This document shows, in pieces, positions 143 to 16,712 of a DNA stretch of 64,000 nt. The number at the start of each line of letters is the position of its first letter. Position 1 is the stretch's first letter. The DNA lies in contig NZ_RXOB02000022.1 in the NCBI RefSeq assembly GCF_004143485.2, positions 186,001-250,000 on the forward strand, written 5' to 3'. Source of the DNA: Halorussus amylolyticus (lineage in GTDB: Archaea; Halobacteriota; Halobacteria; Halobacteriales; Haladaptataceae). A model generated the notes under the pieces. That model had not been told where the DNA came from and searched no databases. It saw only the letters and a program-made list of their open reading frames with translations. The position numbers and the translations under genes were made by a program.

Positions 143-2149
143 CTACTCGGTCTTCGCGCTGATGTGGCCCTTGACGAGGTACTCCATCGCGGTCGTGGTG
201 TGTTCGGACACCGTCGCCTCCGCGTCGGTGTGGTCGTCGGTCTCGCCCGCGACGGGGAAGTTGTACGTGTCGGTCTTGCCCCAGTAGGTCTTGGTCTCCT
301 CGTAGAAGCCGATGTGCGGAAGCTGGTAGTTGTGGTACCAGACCAGCTTCTCGGTCAGGTCGCGCATCTCGTCTTCGTCCTGCGTCTGTGACAGGACGTT
401 CGTCCACTTGAACGGGTAGAGCGTCTGCATATCGCCGCCGTCACCCATCGCTCCCACCTCGGTCGGGAACTCCGGCCGGAGCGGGTGGTTCAACTTCTCG
501 GTGGTCTCCTGTTCGAGCTCCGGCTCCGCCCGATTGACCTCGCAGCTCTCGGGCGGGTCGAGGGTCTCGGCGTGGTTGTCGTAGCGCCCGAGACCGCCCG
601 CGCTCACGGTGGTGAACGCCGACGCGGGATGCGTCGCGTTCGTGAACCAGTTGCACATATCGAAGTCGTACGTCTCGTCCCACGTGTTCCAGAAGCCGCT
701 GCTCGACGGCACGATGAGCTTGTTGTCGAATCCGAACTCGTCGAGTTTCGGGCTGAGGTACTTGCCGATGGTCTCGTAAATCGGCCACGGCGGCGTGAGG
801 TACTGAAGCCCCTCGACGGCGTCCCCGTCGGGACCGACCCACTGGTCGCCGTCTTTGGTGTAGCCCGCGTCTTCGAGGACTTGTGTCGCCTTGTCCGGCT
901 GGGAGTTCAGCCCGTAGTCGATGATGCTGTCGCGGAATTCGTCCGGGAGCCACTGGTCGGCCAGCGTCGAGGACATCCCCATCGAGTTCCGGTGGGGAAC
1001 GTACTCCTGTCCGTGCGACCCCTTGATGACTTCCACCAGTTCCTCGTGGTCGATGACGTACGCGATTGCGCGCCGAACCGCCCGTCGCGAGAGGTGCTTG
1101 TTGTCGAAGTTGATGGCGAGCTTCGGGACGCCGCCGATGGAGAACTGGCTGAACACGTCGAGGTCGTCGTTCTGTTCGACCTGCGTGAGCATCTTGTCGC
1201 CGAAGTCGAACCGGCCGGACTGGAGCGCCTGAATCGACTTCTGGTTGTCCGCCATCAGGACCCAGTTGAAGGTGTCGAGGTTCGTCCAGTCGGCGCGCGG
1301 GTGGTCTTCGTACTTCTCGTGAGTGACTTCGGTCGGGTCGAACTGCGTGGGTTGCCACATCCCGCACCCGAGACCCTCGGCCGTGAGGTCGTCGAGCGAA
1401 ATCTTGTGCTCGTTGAGGTCCTGGGCCACGCTGCTAATCGCGTCCTCGCTACTCGCGTCCTCGAACTGTTCGAGCCACGACTCGAAGTAGTCGTGCTTCG
1501 CGACGAGGCCGATGTACCCGACTTGCTGGAGGTCGGGGTTCGCGGGACCCGCGAGTTCGTTCCGAAGCGTGTAGTCGTCTTCGAGAACCCACGTGTTGTC
1601 GGTCTCCTCGGGGCCGCCGTACTCCTGATAGGCGGTAATCATCTGTGTGGTGTACATGTCCTGGGCGGTGACCGGGGTGCCGTCCCACCACGTGTACTCG
1701 TCGCTGAGTTCGATGACGACTTCGCACCCGCCGCCTTCGAGGCGGATGTCGTCGGCGAGCCACCAAATCGGTTCGCCGCGGTTGTTCGGGTAGACGAGCG
1801 ACTCCCACCACATGTACTCCGCCCAGTACTCGAAGTCGCTCTGGGTGGCGAAGGGGTTGACGTTCGCGTCGCTCGGCGTCCAACTCACCGGCTTGCGAAT
1901 CGTGATGTCGGTGGTGAGCGGCGACCCGCCCTCCGAGTCCTCGGTCGTGGAATCGTCGGACTCGGTGTCGGACGCAGTCGTGCTCCCGTCTTCGGTGGTC
2001 GTGAGCACGTCTGCGTCGTCGGGGTCTTGACCGCTACTGCATCCGGCAAGACCGGCGGTAGCCGCACCGGAAGCGAGCGCTAGTATCTGTCGGCGTGAGA
2101 GCCGTTGCGAACCGCTGGTCTCACTGCTCGAATGGCTTCTGTTAACCAT
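143..2149 (-). CDS. ABC transporter substrate-binding lipoprotein, family 5 (peptide/oligosaccharide type)
   Basis: A long extracytoplasmic solute-binding protein of the SBP_bac_5 class, which bind oligopeptides, nickel or oligosaccharides. A twin-arginine motif (SRRQILA) followed by a lipobox (LAGC) shows Tat export and lipid anchoring; an acidic Ser/Thr/Asp-rich linker follows. About 620 residues of mature domain is normal to slightly long for the family. An ATG at 2179 is also in frame, but the best TATA-like box (centre near 2200) would start transcription near 2173, so the ATG at 2149 is preferred. No permease or ATPase genes are adjacent. The substrate is unknown; the neighbouring chitin genes suggest amino-sugar oligomers, which is inference. 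Confidence 0.9.
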   Translation of the reverse strand: MVNRSHSSSETSGSQRLSRRQILALASGAATAGLAGCSSGQDPDDADVLTTTEDGSTTASDTESDDSTTEDSEGGSPLTTDITIRKPVSWTPSDANVNPFATQSDFEYWAEYMWWESLVYPNNRGEPIWWLADDIRLEGGGCEVVIELSDEYTWWDGTPVTAQDMYTTQMITAYQEYGGPEETDNTWVLEDDYTLRNELAGPANPDLQQVGYIGLVAKHDYFESWLEQFEDASSEDAISSVAQDLNEHKISLDDLTAEGLGCGMWQPTQFDPTEVTHEKYEDHPRADWTNLDTFNWVLMADNQKSIQALQSGRFDFGDKMLTQVEQNDDLDVFSQFSIGGVPKLAINFDNKHLSRRAVRRAIAYVIDHEELVEVIKGSHGQEYVPHRNSMGMSSTLADQWLPDEFRDSIIDYGLNSQPDKATQVLEDAGYTKDGDQWVGPDGDAVEGLQYLTPPWPIYETIGKYLSPKLDEFGFDNKLIVPSSSGFWNTWDETYDFDMCNWFTNATHPASAFTTVSAGGLGRYDNHAETLDPPESCEVNRAEPELEQETTEKLNHPLRPEFPTEVGAMGDGGDMQTLYPFKWTNVLSQTQDEDEMRDLTEKLVWYHNYQLPHIGFYEETKTYWGKTDTYNFPVAGETDDHTDAEATVSEHTTTAMEYLVKGHISAKTE

Positions 2150-2195
2150 GCACACTTCGTAGTCAGGTGTTTTTGACATAAAGGTTTTGGTACTT

Positions 2196-2377: not shown

Positions 2378-3364
2378 GTGACGGTCGAGTGTCGGCGACT
2401 CACCGACCGCGAGCGCGTGCTGGCGGGCGTCGAACGCTGGAACGACGCCCACCCCGAGTTCGAAATCGACGAGCGACTCGTCGAACAGAACGTCTACGCG
2501 CCGTTCGCTGGCGTCGATGTCGCGGCGTGGGGGTGGTACGCCGACGCCGACGAATCGGTCCCGACCGGATTCGTCCTCGCGAAGACGCTCACGCGAACGG
2601 TCCACGGGTACGCCGGACCCGACCGCGGCTGGATTAGCCTCCTCGCGGTCGACTCCGGAGCCGACGATTTTCGGGCGGTCGGACGCGCGCTCCTCGACGC
2701 CGCGGAACGCGAGCTAGCAAACTCCGGCGTCGAGACGCTCCGGTTCGGCGGCGACCCGCAGAACTTCCTCGCGGGGCTTCCCGGCAGTTTCTCCGACGAC
2801 TACGCCGACCTGCTCGCTGACGCAGGGTACGAGCGCGACGGCACGGTGTACGACCTCGAACGCGATATCTCCGGGTTCGAACTCCCCGAGCGAGTCGAGC
2901 GTACGCGAGCGCTCGCGGACGACCTGACCGTCGAGCGAGTCGAAGCGCGAAGCGAGTCCGACCTGACGAGATTCCTCGAACGAGAGTTCCCCGGCCGGTG
3001 GCACTACGAAGCCGAGAACGTCGCTCGACGCCCCGGCGGCGTAGACGACTACTGGGTTCTCAGGCGCGGCGAAACGGTAGTCGGATTCGCCCGGACGAAC
3101 GCGCCGTCGTCGGCGTACTGCGGCCCCAACGCGAACTGGGGCTGGCGACTCGGCGACGCCTACTGCGGTCTCGGCCCGGTGGGCATTCACTCGGAGTACC
3201 GCGGTCGGGGCTGGGGATTGTTCCTGCTGGCGACCGTCGTGGAGTCGCTCCGCGATGACGGCTACGACCACGTCGTCATCGACTGGACCGGCCTGCTCGA
3301 CTACTACGCGAAGTTGGGCTTCGAACCGTGGCTCGAATACGACGTGTTCCGGAAGGACCTGTGA
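2378..3364 (+). CDS. Tandem-domain GNAT family N-acetyltransferase
   Basis: A 328-residue acetyltransferase with two GNAT-like halves, as in mycothiol-synthase-type proteins. The C-terminal half carries the acetyl-CoA loop (YRGRGWGLFLL, about residue 275) and the usual terminal strand with YAKLGFEP. The N-terminal half (about 1-150) is more diverged. The start is GTG; a GGAGGT Shine-Dalgarno sequence at 2363-2368 lies nine bases upstream and decides the start. It reads in the same direction as the kinase gene 48 bases downstream and may be cotranscribed with it. Acetylation of an amino sugar would fit the context but the substrate cannot be read from the sequence. Confidence 0.85.
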   Translation: MTVECRRLTDRERVLAGVERWNDAHPEFEIDERLVEQNVYAPFAGVDVAAWGWYADADESVPTGFVLAKTLTRTVHGYAGPDRGWISLLAVDSGADDFRAVGRALLDAAERELANSGVETLRFGGDPQNFLAGLPGSFSDDYADLLADAGYERDGTVYDLERDISGFELPERVERTRALADDLTVERVEARSESDLTRFLEREFPGRWHYEAENVARRPGGVDDYWVLRRGETVVGFARTNAPSSAYCGPNANWGWRLGDAYCGLGPVGIHSEYRGRGWGLFLLATVVESLRDDGYDHVVIDWTGLLDYYAKLGFEPWLEYDVFRKDL

Positions 3365-3412
3365 AAACGGAGTCGGGGAAACACCCAAGACGGCCGGGCG
3401 AACAGCTACCGT

Positions 3413-4612
3413 ATGCGACTACGCGACGAGATTTCCGAGGCGCGGTACGCGGTCGGACTGATGTCCGGCACGTCGCTCGACGGCATCGACGCGGCGTGCT
3501 GTCGGATTCGCCGAGACCCCGCGAGCGACCCGCCGACGAACTACGAGGTGACAGTCGAGTCGTTCCACACCGAGGCCTACCCGGCCGACCTCCGCGCCGA
3601 ACTGCTCGCGCTCTGCGACGACGAGACCGGAACCGTCGATGCGGTCTGCCGGACGAACGTCGCGCTCGGCGAACTGTTCGCCGACGCCGCGCTCGCGGCG
3701 TGCGAGGAGGCGGACGTGTCCCCCGAGGAGGTGGCGGTCGTCGGAAGCCACGGCCAGACGGTCTGGCACGCGCCCGACCCGGAGGCGGTTCCGGGCACCG
3801 ACCGACACACGCGCTCGACGCTCCAAATCGGCGACGGGAGCGTCATCGCCCACCGGACCGGCGTGCCCACGGTGTCGGATTTCAGACTCGGCGACATCGC
3901 GGCCGGCGGCCACGGCGCGCCCCTCACCCCCTTCTTCGACCTCGCGTGCCTGTCGGCCGACGACGAGGCGCGCGCGCTCCAGAACATCGGCGGCATCGGA
4001 AACTGCACCCTCCTGCCGCCGAGCCCCGACCGCGACGACGCGCTGGCGTTCGACACCGGGCCGGGGAACATGGTCATCGATGCGGTGGTCGAGACACTGA
4101 CGGACGGCGAGGCGACCTACGACGAGGACGGCGAGTGGGCCGCAGAGGGCGGGGTCGATGAGAAGGTGGTCGCCGAGTTCCTCGACGATTCGTACTTCGA
4201 GCGAGCGCCGCCCAAGACGACCGGCCGCGAGCGCTTCGGCCACCATTACGCCCGCGAGTTCGTCGCGGCGGCGCGCGACCGCGACTGTGGGGATGCTGAC
4301 ATCGTGGCCTCCGCGACCGCACTCACTGCCCAGTCCATCGCCGACGCCTACGACCGATTCGCCGACCCGTACCCCGACCGAATCGTGGTCTCGGGCGGCG
4401 GGGCCAACAACCCCACCCTGCTCTCGATGCTCGCCGAGCGAACTCGGAGTCCGGTCGAGCGACTCGAATCGCTCGGTCTCGACAGCGATGCGAAGGAGGC
4501 CGCACTGTTCGCGCTCCTCGGAATCACGTCGCTCGACGGCGTGGCGAACAACGTCCCGCGCGCGACCGGCGCGGAGCGCCCGGTCGCGCTGGGAAAGCTG
4601 AGTCGTCCGTAG
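3413..4612 (+). CDS. anmK: Anhydro-N-acetylmuramic acid kinase (AnmK) family sugar kinase
   Basis: Full-length (399 aa) member of the AnmK family, ATP-dependent kinases that open 1,6-anhydro-MurNAc and phosphorylate it at O6 in bacterial cell-wall recycling. The signature GLMSGTSLDGID is at residues 15-26, GGHGAPLTPFFD around 165 matches the substrate/catalytic segment, DTGPGNMVID is near 212, and the second ATP-site motif VSGGGANNP is near 325. No key segment is missing. Archaea make no murein, so the enzyme would act on scavenged bacterial anhydro-muropeptides or on a different anhydro- or amino-sugar. It sits beside RidA, dehydrogenase, PLP-enzyme and chitinase genes, which supports a catabolic role. 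Confidence 0.92.
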   Translation: MRLRDEISEARYAVGLMSGTSLDGIDAACCRIRRDPASDPPTNYEVTVESFHTEAYPADLRAELLALCDDETGTVDAVCRTNVALGELFADAALAACEEADVSPEEVAVVGSHGQTVWHAPDPEAVPGTDRHTRSTLQIGDGSVIAHRTGVPTVSDFRLGDIAAGGHGAPLTPFFDLACLSADDEARALQNIGGIGNCTLLPPSPDRDDALAFDTGPGNMVIDAVVETLTDGEATYDEDGEWAAEGGVDEKVVAEFLDDSYFERAPPKTTGRERFGHHYAREFVAAARDRDCGDADIVASATALTAQSIADAYDRFADPYPDRIVVSGGGANNPTLLSMLAERTRSPVERLESLGLDSDAKEAALFALLGITSLDGVANNVPRATGAERPVALGKLSRP

Positions 4613-4645
4613 TTCGAAAACTCAGTCGTCCGTAATCCGGAACGC

Positions 4646-5029
4646 TCAGTCGTCCGTCGCCGACGCCACGACCTCGATTTCCACGTCGATATCGACCGGG
4701 AGGTCGGCGACCTGTACCGCGCTCCGGGCGGGGTACGGGTCGGACATGTACTCGCCGTACACGTCGTTGATATCGTCGTAGTCGTCCATGTCCATCACGA
4801 ACACGGTGGCTTTCACCACGTCGTCGAGCGACTTGCCCGCCGACGCGAGGACGGCTTCGACGTTTTCGAGGGTGCGCTCGGTCTGTTCGCGCACGTCGCC
4901 GTCGATGATGTCGCCGGTCTCGGGGTCGATGGGACCCTGCCCCGAGACGTAGATTTTGTCGCCGTCGCGGATTCCCTGCGAGAACGGTCCGATGCTCGGC
5001 GGCGCGTCGTCGGTGGATAGTTCTTCCAT
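4646..5029 (-). CDS. ridA: RidA family enamine/imine deaminase
   Basis: Small trimeric RidA/YjgF/YER057c fold protein of 127 residues. Known members hydrolyse reactive enamines and imines, such as 2-aminoacrylate, released by PLP enzymes. The motifs SIGPFSQGI and IYVSGQGPIDPETG, and the C-terminal PARSAVQV with the substrate-binding arginine, are all present. A longer frame reaches upstream to 5095, but the extra residues are not acidic and match no family sequence, so the ATG at 5029 (MEELSTDDAPP) is chosen. It converges with anmK, 33 bases between stops. A PLP-dependent ammonia-lyase-like gene 1.3 kb away would generate suitable imine products. Confidence 0.93.
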   Translation of the reverse strand: MEELSTDDAPPSIGPFSQGIRDGDKIYVSGQGPIDPETGDIIDGDVREQTERTLENVEAVLASAGKSLDDVVKATVFVMDMDDYDDINDVYGEYMSDPYPARSAVQVADLPVDIDVEIEVVASATDD

Positions 5030-5114
5030 GCGGGCGACTCTCGCGCGCGAGTCCACATTAGATTTCTCTTTCCGGCTATTCGAACGGACTCGCACTTTCG
5101 GGGTACCGAGGTAG

Positions 5115-5122
5115 CTTTATAT
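5115..5122 (+). promoter_or_regulatory. TATA box of the dehydrogenase gene
   Basis: CTTTATAT lies 33-40 bases upstream of the ATG at 5155, between two divergent genes. Spacing predicts a transcript with about ten untranslated bases. Confidence 0.45.
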
Positions 5123-5154
5123 CCGTCCGCCGACGAACTCGAAGCGATTCGAGT

Positions 5155-6174
5155 ATGCAAGCCATAGTCATCGACGGCGACGGCGACATATGGGACGAGC
5201 AACGCGACCGCCCCGAACCCGCTCCGGGCGAGGCGCTGGTCAAGATTCGCGCGGTCGGCATCTGCGGGAGCGACCTCGGACTCATCGAAGGCGAGGGACC
5301 TCCGTGGACGAACTACCCCCTCGTGCCGGGCCACGAAGTGTGTGCCGAAGTCGTGGAACTCGGTGAGGGCGTCGAGGACCTCTCGGTCGGCGACCGGGTC
5401 GCGCTCCACGGCTTCGTCTACTGTGGCACCTGCACGCCGTGCCGCGAGGGCCGGTACTACCAGTGCGACGACCTGCAGGAGGTCGGTTTCACCATCGACG
5501 GCGGCTACCGCGAGTACGCCGCGCTACCCGCCTACACCCTCACGCCGATTCCCGACGACATCTCCGACCTCGAAGCGACTCAAATCGACTCGGCGGCCTG
5601 CACCCTCCACGCGATGAAGCGGGTCGAAACCGCTGTGACCGACACCGCCGCGGTTCTCGGTCCGGGGTCGCTCGGCCTCTACGGCGTCCAGTTGCTCCAC
5701 GCTTGGGGCGTCGAGGACGTGATTCTGACCGGGACGCGCGACGAGCGCCTCGAAGTCGGAACGGACCTCGGCGCGAACCGCACGGTGAACGTCCGCGAGG
5801 AGAACCCCGTCGAGGCCGTCCGCGAGTACACGGACGGCGAGGGCGTGGACCTCTGCGTCGAGGCGGCGGGCGCGGGCGACGTGGTGAACACCTGCCTCGA
5901 AATCACGAAAAAGCGCGGGAGCGTCGTCCTGACCGGCGTGTTCGGCGGCAAGAAGGAAATCGACCCGAACCACATCGTCTCGAAGGAACTCGAAGTGGTC
6001 GGCGGGGTCACGGCCTCCCACGCGGTCGCGGACGTCATCGAACTGTTCCGGCGCGGCGACCTCACGGTCGAAGGCATCGTCACCCACGAGTTCCCCCTCG
6101 CGGAGTACGACGACGCGCTCGATACGGTTCGAGAACGCAGGGACGGCGTGATTAAGGGCGTACTTCGGCCTTGA
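5155..6174 (+). CDS. Zinc-dependent alcohol/sugar dehydrogenase (MDR superfamily)
   Basis: A 339-residue medium-chain dehydrogenase. The catalytic zinc site is visible as C37 (GICGSD) and H60-E61 (PGHEV). The structural zinc lobe has its four cysteines at 90, 93, 96 and 104. A Rossmann NAD(P) domain begins at about residue 165 with LGPGSLGLYG. Relatives oxidise sugars, polyols or threonine. Because the surrounding genes handle amino sugars, a glucosamine or related sugar dehydrogenase is a reasonable guess but is inference. A structured repeat element begins 41 bases after the stop on the same strand. Confidence 0.9.
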   Translation: MQAIVIDGDGDIWDEQRDRPEPAPGEALVKIRAVGICGSDLGLIEGEGPPWTNYPLVPGHEVCAEVVELGEGVEDLSVGDRVALHGFVYCGTCTPCREGRYYQCDDLQEVGFTIDGGYREYAALPAYTLTPIPDDISDLEATQIDSAACTLHAMKRVETAVTDTAAVLGPGSLGLYGVQLLHAWGVEDVILTGTRDERLEVGTDLGANRTVNVREENPVEAVREYTDGEGVDLCVEAAGAGDVVNTCLEITKKRGSVVLTGVFGGKKEIDPNHIVSKELEVVGGVTASHAVADVIELFRRGDLTVEGIVTHEFPLAEYDDALDTVRERRDGVIKGVLRP

Positions 6175-6214
6175 TTGACCTTTGAGGTGGCGAACGCGCG
6201 ACTGACCAACCACT

Positions 6215-6339
6215 GGGTGGGACTGAAAGGGGCGGCGCGCTCGCGTTTACTTTAGTCGTCTCAGCGACCTCTATCTGCGCGGGCAGTGCGGAGAGCGCAG
6301 ATATGTCGCTGAGCGACCGCGAGCGCGCCGGGGCTTTCT
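6215..6339 (+). repeat. 3'-intergenic structured element, copy A
   Basis: Complete copy of a dispersed element. A head box (6215-6233, ending GGGACTGAAAGGGGC) is followed by stem P1 (6234-6245 with 6318-6329, 12 perfect pairs), a single-stranded TTTACTTTA, stem P2 (GTCG, bulged T, CTCAGCGAC at 6260-6268, pairing with 6305-6317), a three-base bulge CTC opposite one T, stem P3 (TATCTGCGC at 6272-6280 with 6295-6303), a loop, and the tail GGGGCTTTCT (6330-6339). It lies 41 bases after the dehydrogenase stop, same orientation. It could be an RNA 3' structure or a mobile hairpin DNA element. Confidence 0.75.
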
Positions 6340-6372
6340 AAAACACAGTACCGCCGACTCTACTTCAGCAAC

Positions 6373-7575
6373 TTAGATGTTCGCTTCGATTCGCTCGACC
6401 ACGTAGTCGGCCTCCTCGTCGGTGAGACACATCGGATTCACGGTGAACTCCGAGTTGTGAAGGCCGTCCGCGCCGACGTACACCCGAGGCTCTTCGCGCC
6501 GGAGTGCGGCCACGAGGTCGGCCGCATCGACAGGAGAGTCGCCGAGGTCCGCGACGACTTCGGGCGCGACCGCGGTCTTCTCGGCCCCAGTAATCGAGCA
6601 GGTCAGGCCCTCAATCGCGCCGAGCGAATCGCCGATTCGCTCGGCGCGGGCCTGCCACTCGGCGACGAGCGCGTCGTGGTCCTCCTCGACGAACAGTTCG
6701 AGGGCCCGGATGAGACCCACGAGTTCCTCCTTGCCGACCTTCATCGAGCGCCCGATGCCCTGTCGAGGAACCCCGTCGATGTCGCGCACGTCGAACAGCG
6801 ACTCGGGCGGTTCCCAGGCCTCGCTCGCGGCGTGCATGTCGAGGTGCTGGAGCGCGGCCGACTCCACGAGGTCGGCCCGCCCGGCGAGGATGCCCGTCGA
6901 TTGCGGACCGCGAATCGCCTTCCCGCCGCTGAAGACGACGAGGTCAACGCCGAGGTCGATGAATCGCGTGAGATTCGACGCTGGCGGGAGTTCGGCCGCG
7001 GCGTCCACGATGACCGGAACGCCGTGGTCGTGGGCGATTTCCACGACCGTCTCCAGCGGCGGTTGGGTGTAGGGCTTCTGGACGTACCCGACCGCGGCGG
7101 TCTCGTCGGTGATGGCGTCCGCGATTTCCCACGGCTCGACGTTGGCCGCGCCCGTGCCGAGGTGGTAGTCGTTCGTGCCCACGTCCACGATTTCGGCCCC
7201 GGCCGCCCGGAGCGCGTGGTCGTAGCCGGTTCGATGGGTTCGGGGCATTACGATTTCGCTCGGGACACCCTCGGTGTCGGGGAGGCGGGCCATCGCGCCG
7301 GGGTCGTCGCCCGCGATGGCGGCCGCCGCGCCGAGGGTCATCGCCGACGCCGCGCCGCTGGCGACGTAGCCCGCCTCCGCGCCCGTCACCTCGGAGACGA
7401 GGTCGCTCGCGCGGGCCTGCAGGTCTGAGATGCGCGCGAAGCCGGTCGCGGCGTCGGCCATCGCCTCGACCGCCTCCTCGCGGATGAGGCTCCCGCCGAT
7501 TCGCGTCTTGGTTCCGGCGGCGTTGATGACGGCCGGGACGCCTATTTCGTCGTACACGCTCGGTGTGTCTGGCAT
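6373..7575 (-). CDS. SelA-like PLP-dependent enzyme (D-glucosaminate ammonia-lyase / DgaE-type)
   Basis: A 400-residue fold-type I PLP enzyme related to selenocysteine synthase SelA and to D-glucosaminate(-6-phosphate) ammonia-lyase. The PLP lysine is K219 in FSGGKAIRGPQ, with the ring-nitrogen aspartate D191 in VIVDAAAELPP. The N-terminal INAAGTKTRIGGS and the YVASGAASAM segment are typical of this SelA-like clade. No selenocysteine machinery is seen nearby, so a sugar-acid ammonia-lyase role is favoured. Released ammonia and an enamine intermediate would connect it with RidA, and its keto-deoxy-sugar product would feed the haloarchaeal Entner-Doudoroff route. The substrate is inferred, not seen. 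Confidence 0.82.
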   Translation of the reverse strand: MPDTPSVYDEIGVPAVINAAGTKTRIGGSLIREEAVEAMADAATGFARISDLQARASDLVSEVTGAEAGYVASGAASAMTLGAAAAIAGDDPGAMARLPDTEGVPSEIVMPRTHRTGYDHALRAAGAEIVDVGTNDYHLGTGAANVEPWEIADAITDETAAVGYVQKPYTQPPLETVVEIAHDHGVPVIVDAAAELPPASNLTRFIDLGVDLVVFSGGKAIRGPQSTGILAGRADLVESAALQHLDMHAASEAWEPPESLFDVRDIDGVPRQGIGRSMKVGKEELVGLIRALELFVEEDHDALVAEWQARAERIGDSLGAIEGLTCSITGAEKTAVAPEVVADLGDSPVDAADLVAALRREEPRVYVGADGLHNSEFTVNPMCLTDEEADYVVERIEANI

Positions 7576-7672
7576 GATTCGGATGGCTCGCGGTGGCTAC
7601 TAATCCATTTCGGTGCGGACGGAGAATCTATAGCTTCCACCCAGAGTGAGACAGAGAGAGGGATTTTAGGGT

Positions 7673-7805
7673 AGAAAGCCCCGGCACGCTCGCGGCCGTT
7701 GCTCGGCATATCTGCGCCTCTCAGCAACACCCGGCGCAGATAGTGGCCGAGCAAGCGGCCACGGGCCTTCGGCCCGCGAGCGCGCCGCCCCTTTCAGTCC
7801 CACCC
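7673..7805 (-). repeat. 3'-intergenic structured element, copy B (covarying)
   Basis: Minus-strand copy. Head box at 7787-7805 and tail at 7673-7682. P1 pairs 7774-7786 with 7683-7695 with one G-U wobble in the minus-strand sense. P2 is TTGCTCGGC (element 5' strand, 7746-7754) with GCCGAGCAA (7699-7707), completely different in sequence from CTCAGCGAC/GTCGCTGAG of the other copies yet fully paired, extended by GGCCG/CGGCC across a single-base bulge. The three-base bulge (CAC) opposite one T is kept. P3 is TATCTGCGCC (7733-7742 with 7709-7718). A small extra hairpin GGGCC-TTC-GGCCC occupies the single-stranded segment. It starts about 70 bases after the chitinase stop, same orientation. Confidence 0.75.
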
Positions 7806-7872
7806 GAGGTGGATGCTCAACCGAGCTATGCACGACCCAATCTGACCGGCTACGATACCGAATCAGTCGATT

Positions 7873-9057
<1,185 letters not shown>

Positions 9058-9083
9058 TAAATCCGATAACCGGACGTATCTGT

Positions 9084-9095
9084 GATAAATATTTC
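9084..9095 (-). promoter_or_regulatory. TATA box of the chitinase gene
   Basis: Minus-strand AAATATTTATCA centred about 32 bases before the chitinase ATG predicts a nearly leaderless transcript. This gives the chitinase its own promoter, apart from the two genes upstream. Confidence 0.5.
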
Positions 9096-9129
9096 TCTAG
9101 AATCCTCGATAATTTCGCTCTCGGTGCCC

Positions 9130-9166
9130 GTGCGGTCGTCGCCGACGGCGTCGGCGACGACCGCAC
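9130..9166 (-). terminator. Perfect 17-bp hairpin after the glycosidase-like gene
   Basis: GTGCGGTCGTCGCCGAC pairs perfectly with its complement across a three-base GGC loop. It lies 38 bases beyond the stop of the glycosidase-like gene and upstream of the chitinase promoter, so it probably ends the two-gene transcript. No clear T-run follows. Confidence 0.5.
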
Positions 9167-9203
9167 TTCTTCGAGAGAATCGTCGCGTCTCTCGCCGACC
9201 CGG

Positions 9204-10202
9204 TCACTCGTCGGGAAGCGCGTCGAGGTAGGCGTTCCACACCGCGTCGTGGTCGGTCGTGCCGATGGAGGAGATGACGCGACACGCGTCCCACCCCCAC
9301 ATGAACACGCTATCGACCCCGCCCTCGACCGCGATTTCGGTGGCTCGTTCGACCTTCTTCGGCGTCTCGGGGTCATCGGGGAGCGCGAACCCCTGAATCC
9401 AAATCTGGCTTTCGAGGTCGTACTCGTCGGCCAGACTCACCACGCGGTCGGTGTACTCGTCTACGAACGACTCCATCTCCTCGTCGAAGGCGGCCCAGTA
9501 CGGGTCGGTCGAAAACACGTCGATGTGGTCGCTCGCGGCGAGTCGTTCCCAGTCGGTCAGGCCGTGTTCGCTGCTGTCGCCCGGCAGGAGACAGACCGCG
9601 TTTTCGGCCCCCTCCTCGCGGACCAGCGCCATCATCTCTTCGAGAAAGTCGAACAGCGAGGCCTCCTGAAACTCGACCACGCGGTCGGTCTCGGTCGCTG
9701 GCATCGCTTCGTCGTACTCGGCCTCGTATCGCTCCCGGCAGGCGTCACACCGACAGGTCCACGCCCCCTCCGGAAGCGGATCGGCGTCCCACCCGGGCAC
9801 GTACCAGTGGGGTTCGTCCCAGAAAATCACGTCCGCGCCCAAATCGACCGCATCGCGGGTCCACTCGCGCATGAACCCCCGAAATTTGGGGTCGTTGAAG
9901 CAGGCGGCCGGAACCCGGTCGCCGGTCGAGAGTCGCTGGCGCGAATCGGGATTTCGACCGATGAACTCCGAGAGGGCTTCGCCGCCGAACACTCGGCCGA
10001 CGCCCCACGGATTCACGTAGACGCGCTGGCCGCGGTCGTGACTCGCCGCCACGAGGTCGGCCATCGTCTCCTGGTAGTACCGTTGGTCGCGCTCGCTGAA
10101 GGTGTGAAGCACCGCGTCGAGTCCCTCGTCGCCGAATCGGTCGAGGTCGTGCTCGGCGTGGCGCGGGTCGCGGACGCCGAAGTAGCTGGTGCCGCGCTCC
10201 AT
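9204..10202 (-). CDS. TIM-barrel glycoside-hydrolase-like protein
   Basis: A 332-residue soluble protein with the layout of a (beta/alpha)8 glycosidase. Alternating strand motifs include RVYVNPWGVG, ADVIFWDEPHW (a candidate acid/base glutamate), a short cysteine cluster CRCDACRERY typical of metal-pinned loops in such barrels, IDVFSTDPYW and SVFMWGWDAC near the end. No signal peptide is seen, so it should act in the cytoplasm. Its ATG overlaps the TGA of the PIG-L deacetylase (TGATG), so the two are translationally coupled. I do not recognise a numbered GH family. An exo-acting glucosaminidase after deacetylation would fit, as inference. Confidence 0.75.
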   Translation of the reverse strand: MERGTSYFGVRDPRHAEHDLDRFGDEGLDAVLHTFSERDQRYYQETMADLVAASHDRGQRVYVNPWGVGRVFGGEALSEFIGRNPDSRQRLSTGDRVPAACFNDPKFRGFMREWTRDAVDLGADVIFWDEPHWYVPGWDADPLPEGAWTCRCDACRERYEAEYDEAMPATETDRVVEFQEASLFDFLEEMMALVREEGAENAVCLLPGDSSEHGLTDWERLAASDHIDVFSTDPYWAAFDEEMESFVDEYTDRVVSLADEYDLESQIWIQGFALPDDPETPKKVERATEIAVEGGVDSVFMWGWDACRVISSIGTTDHDAVWNAYLDALPDE

Positions 10203-10897
10203 CAGAGGTACTCCCGCGTGGTCTCGTGAAGCGGTTCGAACCCTTCGGCGTACCTCGCGCCGGTGCGCTTGCCGAGGACGCGCGCCTCCGCCCGGACGCC
10301 CTCCACGAGGTGCTCGAATTCGGCGTCGATGCCGCCGTGTTCCTGCAGGAACGCGACCTGCGACTCGTGGGCGTCGATGGCGTCCTCCTTCACGTCCTGA
10401 TACTCGGAGATGTCGACGAACACCGACGGCTCGAACTCGGCGGTCGGCTTGCCGAAGAAGTAGACGTTCTCGGGGTCGTGTGGCGGATGTTCGGTGTCCA
10501 CCAGCGGGAGCGAGGCCATGTAGTAGGCGTCGGTGACGAGGCGCGAGGCCGCCCGGTGGTCGGGGTGCATGTCTTCCCGGTAGTGGGTCAGGATAACGTC
10601 GGGCTCGTGGTCGCGAATCACGTCCACGAGCGCGAGGCGATTTTCGAGCGAGTAGGTGATTCGGCCGTCCGAGAAGTCGAGGAAGCCGACCTCGGCTCCG
10701 AGCGTCTCGGCGGAGGCTTCGGCCTCCGTCTCGCGGACCGCGGCGACTTCCGCTTCGGTCGTGTCGAAGCCGCCGTACTCGCCGCGAGTGAGGTGGACGA
10801 TTCCGACATCGTCGCCGCGGTCGGCGTGCTTGGCGAGGGTTCCGCCGCAGAATATGTCGGCGTCGTCAGGATGTGCGACTATGGCTAACACTCTCAT
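10202..10897 (-). CDS. PIG-L (LmbE) family N-acetylglucosamine deacetylase
   Basis: A 231-residue zinc deacetylase of the PIG-L/LmbE fold, the fold of archaeal diacetylchitobiose deacetylase and of MshB. The zinc motif AHPDD is at residues 8-12 and the second ligand motif HPDH at 111-114. A longer frame runs to 11023, but the extra 42 residues look non-coding, and a TATA box at 10921-10932 supports the ATG at 10897. It is the first gene of a coupled pair with the glycosidase-like gene. In archaeal chitin breakdown this enzyme removes an acetyl group from chitobiose or GlcNAc, which fits the adjacent chitinase. Confidence 0.9.
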   Translation of the reverse strand: MRVLAIVAHPDDADIFCGGTLAKHADRGDDVGIVHLTRGEYGGFDTTEAEVAAVRETEAEASAETLGAEVGFLDFSDGRITYSLENRLALVDVIRDHEPDVILTHYREDMHPDHRAASRLVTDAYYMASLPLVDTEHPPHDPENVYFFGKPTAEFEPSVFVDISEYQDVKEDAIDAHESQVAFLQEHGGIDAEFEHLVEGVRAEARVLGKRTGARYAEGFEPLHETTREYL

Positions 10898-14556: not shown

Positions 14557-15087
14557 ATGGAGCTGACCCGACGGGACGCGCTGGCCGCCCTCGCCGCAGG
14601 CGGGGTCGCGGTCGGCGCGGGCGCGATGCTCGAAGGCAATCCGTTCGGCGAGAACGCCCCTGCCTCGCCCGAGGACCGCCTCGACACCCTGCTCGCGGTC
14701 GCCGAGGTCGTCTACCCGTCCGAAGTATCCGGCATAGAGGAGTTCGTCCGCACGTACGCGCTCGGGCGCACGGAGGACCGCGACGACTACCGCGAGGGCA
14801 TCGTCGAGGCGCTCGACACCCTCGACGAGTACACCCGGACGTGGCACGACGCCGACTTCCGCGAACTCGACGCCGAGACCCGCGAGTCGGTGCTCGACCA
14901 GATGGGCGTCGATACCGCCGACCCAGACCCCGAGGGGACCGACCGCGAGCGGGTCCGATTCTTCGCAGTCAACGAACTCCTCTACGCGCTCTACACCTCG
15001 CCGACCGGCGGGGAACTGGTCGGCATCGAGAACCCCCAGGGCCACCCCGGCGGGGCGAGTAGCTACCAGCGGGGGCCGGACGGATGA
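14557..15087 (+). CDS. Gluconate 2-dehydrogenase subunit 3 family protein, Tat signal
   Basis: A 176-residue small subunit of the gluconate-2-dehydrogenase type, which helps export and assemble a GMC flavoprotein partner. The N-terminus LTRRDALAALAAGGVAVGAG is a Tat signal without a lipobox. The body contains the family pattern LLAVAEVVYPSE and a C-terminal FFAVNELLYALYTSPTGG followed by NPQGHPGG. It overlaps the flavoprotein gene by four bases (ATGA), so they are coupled. The cytochrome subunit found in bacterial enzymes is absent here. Confidence 0.85.
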   Translation: MELTRRDALAALAAGGVAVGAGAMLEGNPFGENAPASPEDRLDTLLAVAEVVYPSEVSGIEEFVRTYALGRTEDRDDYREGIVEALDTLDEYTRTWHDADFRELDAETRESVLDQMGVDTADPDPEGTDRERVRFFAVNELLYALYTSPTGGELVGIENPQGHPGGASSYQRGPDG

Positions 15088-16712
15088 GCGCGAGCGACGA
15101 GACTCCCGACCGAACGCCGTCCGAACGCGCCGACGTGTGCGTCGTCGGGTCCGGTCCGGCGGGCGCGCTCACGGCCCACCGACTCGCCGAGCGCGGGTAC
15201 GCCGTCGTCGTCCTCGAAGCGGGAGAGCGGTTCGACTTCGAGGACCGCACGCGCCGGATGGAGCGCGCGATTCGACCGGGTCTCGGGTCGGTGTGGGAGA
15301 TGGGCGGCGAGCGCGACGACTACACCTCCGCGGGCGAGAAGTACTACCCGCTGAACGCCGCTCGCGTGAAGGGCGTCGGCGGCACCACGCTCCACTGGCA
15401 GGGAATGGTGATGCGATTCCACGAGTCGGACTTCGAACCGTGGCCCATCGACTACGAGGACCTCCGGCCCTACTACGCCGAAGCGGAGGCGGCGCTGGGG
15501 GTCGCGGGCGCGGACGACAACCCCTTCGCGCCGCCCCGCGAGGACCCCTTCCCGATGGCCGGGTTCGAACCCTCCTACAGCGACTCCGTCTTCGCGGAGG
15601 CCTGCGAGCGACTCGGCGTGGCGATGCACTCGGTCCCGAACGCGCGCAACTCCGAGGGCTACGACGACCGGAGCGCGTGCGTCGGCTACGGCACCTGCAA
15701 ACCGGTGTGCCCCTCCGGCGCGAAGTATTCGGCCGACCACCACGTCGAGAAGGCCGAGGACGAGGGCGCGCGCGTCATCGACCGCGCGCCCGTCCAGCGA
15801 CTCGAACACGACGATTCGGGCGAGCGCGTGACCGCCGCGGTGTACGCTACGCCCGACGGAGAGACCCACCGACAGGAGGCCCGCGAGTTCGTCCTCGCGG
15901 CAGGCGGGGTCGAGACGCCGCGGCTTCTCTTGCTCTCGGAGTCCGACGAATACCCGGACGGTCTCGCCAACACCTCGGGCGCGGTCGGTCGGTACTTCAT
16001 GGACCACCTGTTCGGCGGCGCGGGCGGCACTCTCGACCGCGAGACTCGACAGAACCACGTCGGATTCATCACCAGCGAGTGCCACCAGTTCTACGACGAC
16101 CCCGCGAGGGGAGCGTCGGGAACCGACGGCGAGATTCCGGCGTGGTCTGGCGAGGGCCCCGAACCCGACCGCTTCAAACTCGAATTCCTGAACTACGCCG
16201 GACCCTCGCCGGTCGAGATGGCCTTATCGGGCAACGAGTTCGGCGACGACCTGCTCGATTCGCTCCGGGAGGGGTACGGCAACTCCATCGCGATGGGCGG
16301 ACTCGTCGGCCAGCGCCCCCGGAAGCAAAACCGCATCGAACTCGACCCCGAGACCACCGACGACCACGGCAACCCCGTTCCGAAGATTCACTGGCACCTC
16401 GACGACCGCACGCGGGCCAGCCTCCGGCGCGCGAACGAGATTCAGCACGCGATTCTCGACGACCTCGGCGTGGACATCTCGTGGACGGTCGGACCCGACG
16501 AGACCGGCCCGGCGTTCCACCACATGGGGACGACTCGGATGGGCACCGACCCCGATTCGAGCGTGGTGAACACTCGACTCCGGACTCACGACCTCCGGAA
16601 CCTCTCGGTCGCGTCGAGCAGCGTCTTCGTCACGAGCGGCGCGCTCAACCCCACGCTGACCATCGCGGCGCTCGCGCTCAAGGCGGCCGACCACGTCGAA
16701 GAACGTCTGTAG
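15084..16712 (+). CDS. GMC-family oxidoreductase, gluconate dehydrogenase large-subunit type
   Basis: A 542-residue FAD enzyme of the glucose-methanol-choline family. The dinucleotide motif GSGPAGALTAHRLAE is at about 22-36, the FAD-clasp GVGGTTLHWQG near 97, and the active-site pair is in FHHMGTTRMG (histidine) and SGALNPTLTI (asparagine). No signal of its own is present; it would be carried across the membrane by the Tat signal of the small subunit. Probable periphery-side oxidation of gluconate or a similar sugar acid, passing electrons to a quinone or other acceptor not encoded here. Control by the metal-type operator upstream is likely. Confidence 0.88.
   Translation: MSASDETPDRTPSERADVCVVGSGPAGALTAHRLAERGYAVVVLEAGERFDFEDRTRRMERAIRPGLGSVWEMGGERDDYTSAGEKYYPLNAARVKGVGGTTLHWQGMVMRFHESDFEPWPIDYEDLRPYYAEAEAALGVAGADDNPFAPPREDPFPMAGFEPSYSDSVFAEACERLGVAMHSVPNARNSEGYDDRSACVGYGTCKPVCPSGAKYSADHHVEKAEDEGARVIDRAPVQRLEHDDSGERVTAAVYATPDGETHRQEAREFVLAAGGVETPRLLLLSESDEYPDGLANTSGAVGRYFMDHLFGGAGGTLDRETRQNHVGFITSECHQFYDDPARGASGTDGEIPAWSGEGPEPDRFKLEFLNYAGPSPVEMALSGNEFGDDLLDSLREGYGNSIAMGGLVGQRPRKQNRIELDPETTDDHGNPVPKIHWHLDDRTRASLRRANEIQHAILDDLGVDISWTVGPDETGPAFHHMGTTRMGTDPDSSVVNTRLRTHDLRNLSVASSSVFVTSGALNPTLTIAALALKAADHVEERL

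Follow-up and report, generated by a model that had tools for sequence, protein, structure and literature searches.

The present analysis concerns a stretch of 64,000 nucleotides from Halorussus amylolyticus (contig NZ_RXOB02000022.1, positions 186,001 to 250,000; hereafter the window), at the beginning of which lies one half of a gene cluster of about 30 kb. The window edge splits this cluster, and the other half is found directly upstream on the same contig (G000:C5:169331-186000; features located there are given below by their contig positions). Judged from its gene families, their neighbourhood and their distribution, the cluster is probably a haloarchaeal locus for the utilisation of peptidoglycan in the form of muropeptides. 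That bacterial peptidoglycan would be the substrate is considered very likely, and an oxidative route acting on unphosphorylated sugars is slightly favoured. Haloarchaea themselves form a class devoid of peptidoglycan.

Distribution and conservation of the cluster

The proposal mainly arises from two genes, namely those of NamZ, an exo-N-acetylmuramidase of family GH171 (contig 172671-173837; PF07075 267 bits, PF20732 162 bits; best PDB match 4k05, 279 bits), and of an AnmK-family kinase (window 3413..4612, plus strand; PF03702 335 bits; NCBIfam AnmK model 450 bits, above its cut-off). Among 234 genomes of the haloarchaeal order, representing 75 genera, NamZ (PF07075) and AnmK (PF03702) have an identical distribution, each being confined to one set of 22 genomes from 9 genera, in which they are nearly always linked (Fisher p 2.3e-31, a value that ignores shared ancestry, the genus counts being the safer figure). 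The whole-genome protein searches behind such counts scored the best candidates of a first pass; divergent homologues could escape them, and absences are not proof. In the same line, the subfamily of an enolase-superfamily enzyme of the cluster (at least 60% identity) is present in 21 of the 22 NamZ/AnmK genomes versus none of the 212 others, and the protein called Barrel1 (contig 175734-176894; E 1e-100 or better) in all 22 versus 6 of the 212. For a pyridoxal-phosphate (PLP) enzyme, the corresponding figures are 20/22 and 43/212, and a second barrel-like protein, Barrel2, occurs in 26 genomes, 25 of which also carry the PLP enzyme. These counts reveal two modules: a muramic one made of NamZ, AnmK, the enolase-superfamily enzyme, Barrel1 and their neighbours, and a wider amino-sugar-acid one made of the PLP enzyme, Barrel2, the PIG-L deacetylase, RidA and a dehydrogenase. 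The latter is also found within chitinase clusters of Natrialba and Natrarchaeobius. Besides, many haloarchaea carry the PLP enzyme together with RidA, PIG-L and a relative of glucose dehydrogenase (GDH).

When the NamZ/AnmK regions of 21 other genomes are compared with the H. amylolyticus locus, most loci share the cluster of about 30 kb, with genes for IclR, GH18, a creatininase-family protein, NagZ, NamZ, Barrel1, an AmiE-like hydrolase, a HAD phosphatase, AnmK, a GNAT protein, the solute-binding protein, permeases and ATPases of an ATP-binding cassette (ABC) transporter, the enolase-superfamily enzyme, PIG-L, Barrel2, the PLP enzyme, a dehydrogenase and RidA. Conserved across several families are NamZ, AnmK, Barrel1, the enolase-superfamily enzyme, the AmiE-like hydrolase, the ABC transporter, creatininase, RidA and IclR, and several copies of the cluster are on plasmid records. 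RidA lies in the loci of 19 of the 22 genomes and GH18 (at least 40% identity) in those of 12, while an Amidase_2 protein of the twin-arginine translocation (Tat) type (108 bits) is encoded in four loci and GHL10 in three. The minimal loci of the genomes G104 and G222 keep NamZ, AnmK, the AmiE-like hydrolase, Barrel1, the enolase-superfamily enzyme, a short-chain dehydrogenase/reductase (SDR), RidA and creatininase, and are devoid of NagZ and PIG-L; the minimal loci of Natrialba swarupiae (L029 / L146-L147) and G104 (L141-L142) combine NamZ, AnmK, the enolase-superfamily enzyme, SDR and RidA with the lack of these two genes. In G104, no PLP enzyme was found genome-wide at the threshold used. 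A dehydrogenase is a fixed part of the locus, because every locus except the fragmented one of G013 contains either an F420-family oxidoreductase (contig 174355-175365 in H. amylolyticus) or the SDR, both being found together only in G190. In addition, a zinc dehydrogenase is at the locus in 4 genomes and GDH in 12, and the two coincide in none. A GATase1-like protein (PF07090; L160 6766-7494 and orthologs) lies between PIG-L and Barrel2 in the loci of 10 of the 22 genomes, and is missing from the H. amylolyticus cluster.

The initial annotation had described the window half as a chitin locus, in which GH18 would release chitobiose, PIG-L and a barrel protein would convert it to glucosamine, and the latter would be oxidised and cleaved to 2-keto-3-deoxygluconate (KDG). 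Some data are in line with this view, now considered improbable: Natrialba and Natrarchaeobius have the set of PLP enzyme, PIG-L, RidA and GDH within their chitinase clusters (PMC12343721), the best PDB matches of GH18 are chitinases, which weighs against peptidoglycan, and the PDB relatives of PIG-L include the diacetylchitobiose deacetylase 8bgn (92 bits). Furthermore, the H. amylolyticus genome holds a single copy of the PLP enzyme, so that chitin-derived N-acetylglucosamine (GlcNAc) would share it. However, a chitin route has no use for AnmK, whose distribution, identical to that of NamZ, is left unexplained by chitin, as are NamZ itself, the AmiE-like hydrolase and the peptide-type transporter; the chitin clusters of Natrialba use a different, sugar-type transporter and, over the stretches examined, are devoid of both AnmK and NamZ. 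Chitin alone being thus insufficient, it was abandoned as the defining substrate. The oxidative part of that annotation (dehydrogenase, PIG-L, PLP lyase, RidA and KDG) is by contrast supported by the joint travel of the PLP enzyme, RidA, PIG-L and GDH, by an active site favouring an unphosphorylated substrate and by the absence of NagB, which had been claimed for the window and extends to the whole H. amylolyticus genome, where no NagB-type deaminase (PF01182) was found.

Peptidoglycan rather than chitin alone is indicated because AnmK and NamZ share their 22 genomes and because the best bacterial AnmK matches among PLSDB plasmids (47% identity) sit in murQ operons. It is also indicated by the secreted Amidase_2 and GHL10 proteins of relatives, and by three further components of the upstream half. 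First, NagZ (contig 171015-172649; NF003740 212 bits, cut-off 207) contains the KHFPGHG...DSH motif, and its PDB relatives include B. subtilis YbbD/NagZ and further GH3 GlcNAcases. Second, the AmiE-like serine hydrolase (contig 178553-179743; beta-lactamase-fold PF00144, 198 bits) has SxxK and Tyr residues that are invariant among orthologs, and 35% identity to the serine hydrolase next to Thermomicrobium AnmK; its family match is to the general beta-lactamase fold rather than to an amidase-specific model. Third, the transporter is of the oligopeptide type (permeases and ATPases at contig 180822-185650), its binding protein, Tat-type and of the oligopeptide/dipeptide family (PF00496 106 bits), being encoded by the first gene of the window (143..2179, minus strand), at a position conserved in related loci.

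Phosphate pockets of the PLP and F420 enzymes

The DgaE/SelA-like PLP enzyme (window 6373..7575, minus strand; TIGR01437 198 bits, under the curated cut-off) reaches 190 bits versus an NCBIfam equivalog cut-off of 600 bits, and its best PDB match is 7lc0 (155 bits), the glucosaminate-6-phosphate lyase DGL. The active-site residues of DGL are described in PMC9529869, its phosphate-binding arginines having been assigned by docking. In an alignment of 45 haloarchaeal rows, the two enzymes have in common, besides the fold family, the catalytic Lys213 (44/45) and the carboxylate-binding Arg226 (38/45), whereas the phosphate-binding arginines are replaced, Arg301 mainly by E, Arg332 by G in all 45 rows and Arg346 by M in 40, as are His162/163 by S or P, and Y. 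The haloarchaeal protein is hence predicted to be a D-glucosaminate ammonia-lyase acting on the unphosphorylated acid. A comparable picture emerges for the F420 enzyme: compared to FGD1, it keeps His40, Trp44 and Glu109, which we take to be functional residues, and the phosphate residues Lys198, Lys259 and Arg283 are lost in all orthologs. Since phosphate pockets have been lost in two unrelated enzymes, these replacements point to unphosphorylated substrates. An FGD-type oxidation of MurNAc-6-phosphate (MurNAc, N-acetylmuramic acid) was also considered, and is disfavoured by the lost pocket of the F420 enzyme. Unphosphorylated substrates would moreover fit with the HAD_2 phosphatase encoded near AnmK (contig 180144-180812) acting like MupP, which is also a HAD_2 protein (PMC5371407).

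In this context, the phosphorylated route predicted for the Natrarchaeobius chitin clusters, where phosphorylation of the intermediate by some unidentified kinase is assumed (PMC12343721), has to be weighed. Transposed to the present locus, glucosaminate would first be phosphorylated and the PLP enzyme would form 2-keto-3-deoxy-6-phosphogluconate from the 6-phosphate. Although AnmK does provide a sugar kinase at the locus, it is missing from 43 of the 63 PLP-bearing genomes, and hardly any of the haloarchaeal rows retains the three phosphate arginines or His162 of DGL, which makes this route unlikely.

Absence of MurQ and identity of AnmK

MurQ (TIGR00274) is over the cut-off in none of the 234 genomes, so that a MurQ hidden elsewhere in the genome was rejected. 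The weak TIGR00274 matches are pieces of about 80 residues, mostly in open frames of about 600 residues or more, and presumably correspond to the SIS domains of GlmS; with Paenibacillus MurQ as a query, no match was obtained among the open reading frames of the loci. The bacterial relatives of AnmK are by contrast found with MurQ. In Paenibacillus guangzhouensis, the operon order is murR-murQ-SBP-permease-permease-AnmK-GNAT-PIG-L-NamZ-BadF kinase-GH10-like (SBP, solute-binding protein), and in Thermomicrobium roseum it is SIS-nagA-serine hydrolase-AnmK-hypothetical-hexosaminidase-BadF kinase-murQ. By its gene families, the haloarchaeal cluster corresponds to these bacterial MurNAc operons, minus MurQ. 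It shares with them, including those of the B. subtilis ybbC-ybbD-ybbE type, NamZ, AnmK, NagZ, the AmiE-like hydrolase, the GNAT, PIG-L and GHL10 families and ABC import. It differs from them in having IclR in place of MurR, in the addition of an SDR or F420 enzyme, the enolase-superfamily enzyme, creatininase, RidA and the PLP enzyme, and in NamZ and NagZ devoid of an apparent signal peptide. A MurQ-free arrangement is known from Pseudomonas recycling, where AnmK is followed by the HAD_2 phosphatase MupP and UDP-MurNAc (the uridine diphosphate conjugate) is rebuilt via AmgK and MurU (PMC5371407). The haloarchaeal locus similarly pairs AnmK with a HAD_2 phosphatase, but the predicted outcome is catabolism, the archaeon making no peptidoglycan.

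AnmK, whose catalytic motif DTGPGN is invariant, is predicted to convert 1,6-anhydro-MurNAc to MurNAc-6-phosphate. Nevertheless, several points weigh against this prediction and the peptidoglycan reading as a whole, beyond the chitinase matches of GH18 and the shared ancestry neglected by the Fisher values. The signals for AnmK specificity differ, since the fungal levoglucosan kinase scores higher in the PDB (275 bits) than the solved AnmKs (209 bits), while the operon context leads to AnmK. An SLT-type transglycosylase, the maker of anhydro-MurNAc, was not found in the H. amylolyticus genome, and anhydro-MurNAc must therefore come from bacteria. The AmiE-like hydrolase and the HAD phosphatase are putatively assigned, by family, motif and neighbourhood only. 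In addition, NamZ and AnmK are frame-split in G152 (G152:C3:76316-81787), the AnmK of G190 is a fragment of 113 residues (G190:C5:310619-310957), which suggests local decay or sequencing errors, and NamZ, AnmK and the PLP enzyme are not all linked in G106, G190 and G013.

The levoglucosan kinase score could be taken to point to a kinase of the levoglucosan type in place of AnmK, and to a locus that serves other 1,6-anhydro-sugars or glycosides; given that the NCBIfam AnmK model is passed, and in view of the identity to bacterial AnmKs of murQ operons and of a distribution identical to that of the muramidase NamZ, this appears very improbable. Equally hard to credit is a locus for antagonism, in which secreted GH18 and amidases would kill bacteria and the cytoplasmic genes would merely detoxify or signal: archaea are known to kill bacteria with peptidoglycan hydrolases (PMC12352652) and Amidase_2 is enriched in the locus-bearing genomes (17/22 versus 24/212), but more than 15 genes for import and catabolism exceed the needs of killing and no twin-arginine signal was found in NamZ, NagZ or the AmiE-like hydrolase.

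In the peptidoglycan reading, a step replacing MurQ is needed, and the best candidate for it is the enolase-superfamily enzyme (contig 177405-178526): its subfamily follows the distribution of NamZ and AnmK and is retained in G104 and G161, both without PLP enzyme, and its acid-base residues fit a carboxylate-driven elimination. These residues, KxK, Asp284 and His310/311, are invariant in 20 rows and presumably represent the mandelate-racemase/acid-sugar-dehydratase arrangement. A role as L-Ala-D/L-Glu dipeptide epimerase was rejected, as the beta-strand 6 Lys opposite KxK is absent. We tentatively propose, as a possibility somewhat on the doubtful side, that it is a MurQ-independent lactyl etherase expelling D-lactate from C3 of C1-oxidised MurNAc: it would abstract the C2 proton beside the new carboxylate, D-lactate would leave C3, and the resulting enamide, once deacetylated, would be converted by RidA to KDG. 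Expulsion of lactate from a muramic aldonate by the PLP enzyme is likewise conceivable in principle.

Predicted pathway, remaining genes and related routes

For the pathway as a whole, we infer the substrates, step order, direction and cell location as follows. Secreted hydrolases (GH18, and Amidase_2 or GHL10 in relatives), together with lysis of neighbouring bacteria, would release muropeptides, which would be imported via the peptide-type ABC transporter and split in the cytoplasm by the AmiE-like hydrolase, NagZ and NamZ into peptides, GlcNAc and MurNAc. Anhydro-MurNAc would be converted to MurNAc by AnmK and the HAD phosphatase, as by AnmK and MupP in Pseudomonas. For want of MurQ, C1 oxidation would then turn both sugars into aldonic acids, GlcNAc via the zinc dehydrogenase or GDH and MurNAc via the F420-family enzyme or the SDR. 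PIG-L would deacetylate N-acetylglucosaminate, the PLP enzyme would release ammonia from the product to give KDG, RidA would clear the imine, and KDG would enter the haloarchaeal Entner-Doudoroff pathway.

All genes named in the initial annotation were confirmed, at their positions and in their families. GH18 (7873..9057, minus strand; PF00704 262 bits; Tat-type N-terminus), a secreted endo-glycosidase, could be a chitinase or peptidoglycan glucosaminidase, and could serve chitin, peptidoglycan or both. PIG-L/CE14 (10202..10897, minus strand; PF02585 118 bits; BshB1 174 bits, slightly below cut-off) has GlcNAc or N-acetylglucosaminate as its predicted substrate. The sole tRNA call in the window, a tRNA-Thr (CGT) given by ARAGORN at 10723-10822 on the plus strand, lies within this minus-strand coding sequence and is probably spurious. 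Barrel2 (9204..10202, minus strand), without Pfam or NCBIfam match, belongs to a family that is conserved in a 12-sequence alignment and comes after the PLP enzyme. RidA, an imine/enamine deaminase, is at 4646..about 5029 (minus strand; TIGR00004 154 bits, above cut-off), and the zinc dehydrogenase, a candidate for sugar C1 oxidation, at 5155..6174 (plus strand; PF08240/PF00107/PF16912). The GNAT acetyltransferase (2378..3364, plus strand; PF00583 49 bits) adjoins AnmK in many relatives, as does the GNAT of the Paenibacillus murQ operon, the identity between the two being only 24%. Outside the conserved cluster, at window 14557-16712, a small Tat-type protein is followed by a GMC-like flavin oxidoreductase (FAD-dependent type), a pair that resembles gluconate/sugar dehydrogenases by reading of the frames and could provide sugar oxidation. 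The upstream half also encodes the IclR regulator (contig 169331-170095) and the creatininase-family amidohydrolase (contig 170173-171000; L003 3773-4600), the latter being found in the loci of 18 of the 22 genomes and possibly acting as a lactonase, enamide hydrolase or muramic-lactam hydrolase.

An oxidative amino-sugar route has been put forward before. The Natrarchaeobius chitin clusters, for which a CE14 deacetylase, GDH and DGA lyase route was predicted in 2025, have CE14/PIG-L, GDH, DGA (of the same PLP family), IclR and RutC/RidA in common with the present locus, as well as the predicted Entner-Doudoroff outlet, but contain chitinases and a sugar ABC transporter instead of NamZ, NagZ, AmiE and AnmK (PMC12343721). 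In the ong pathway of marine Pseudoalteromonas, published in 2022, a deacetylase, a PLP enzyme and KDG were shown experimentally and a RidA protein is essential (PMC9537276). As predicted for the haloarchaeal locus, where deacetylase, PLP enzyme and RidA are encoded together, N-acetylglucosaminate leads to KDG without prior phosphorylation; the OngB/OngC pair is, however, described there as a D-aminoacylase-like protein and a putative D-amino acid deaminase, compared to PIG-L and a DgaE-like enzyme here, and the ong substrate is chitin oxidised by lytic polysaccharide monooxygenase, with OngR as regulator (PMC9537276). The question of GlcNAc use was not settled by a 2011 survey covering ten haloarchaeal genomes (PMC3102087). 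As to peptidoglycan-sugar catabolism in haloarchaea, no report was found in the literature searched, although one may exist elsewhere.

If the proposed reading is true, haloarchaea would possess a complete amino-sugar route needing neither NagB nor MurQ, and the enolase-superfamily enzyme would be a concrete candidate for the type of MurQ-independent lactyl etherase proposed to exist in mycobacteria (PMC13041923). Finally, a 2025 study of archaeal peptidoglycan hydrolases that kill bacteria left as a question whether bacteria are also a resource to be scavenged (PMC12352652), and a conserved import and catabolism locus in a peptidoglycan-free archaeal class makes this question directly testable.

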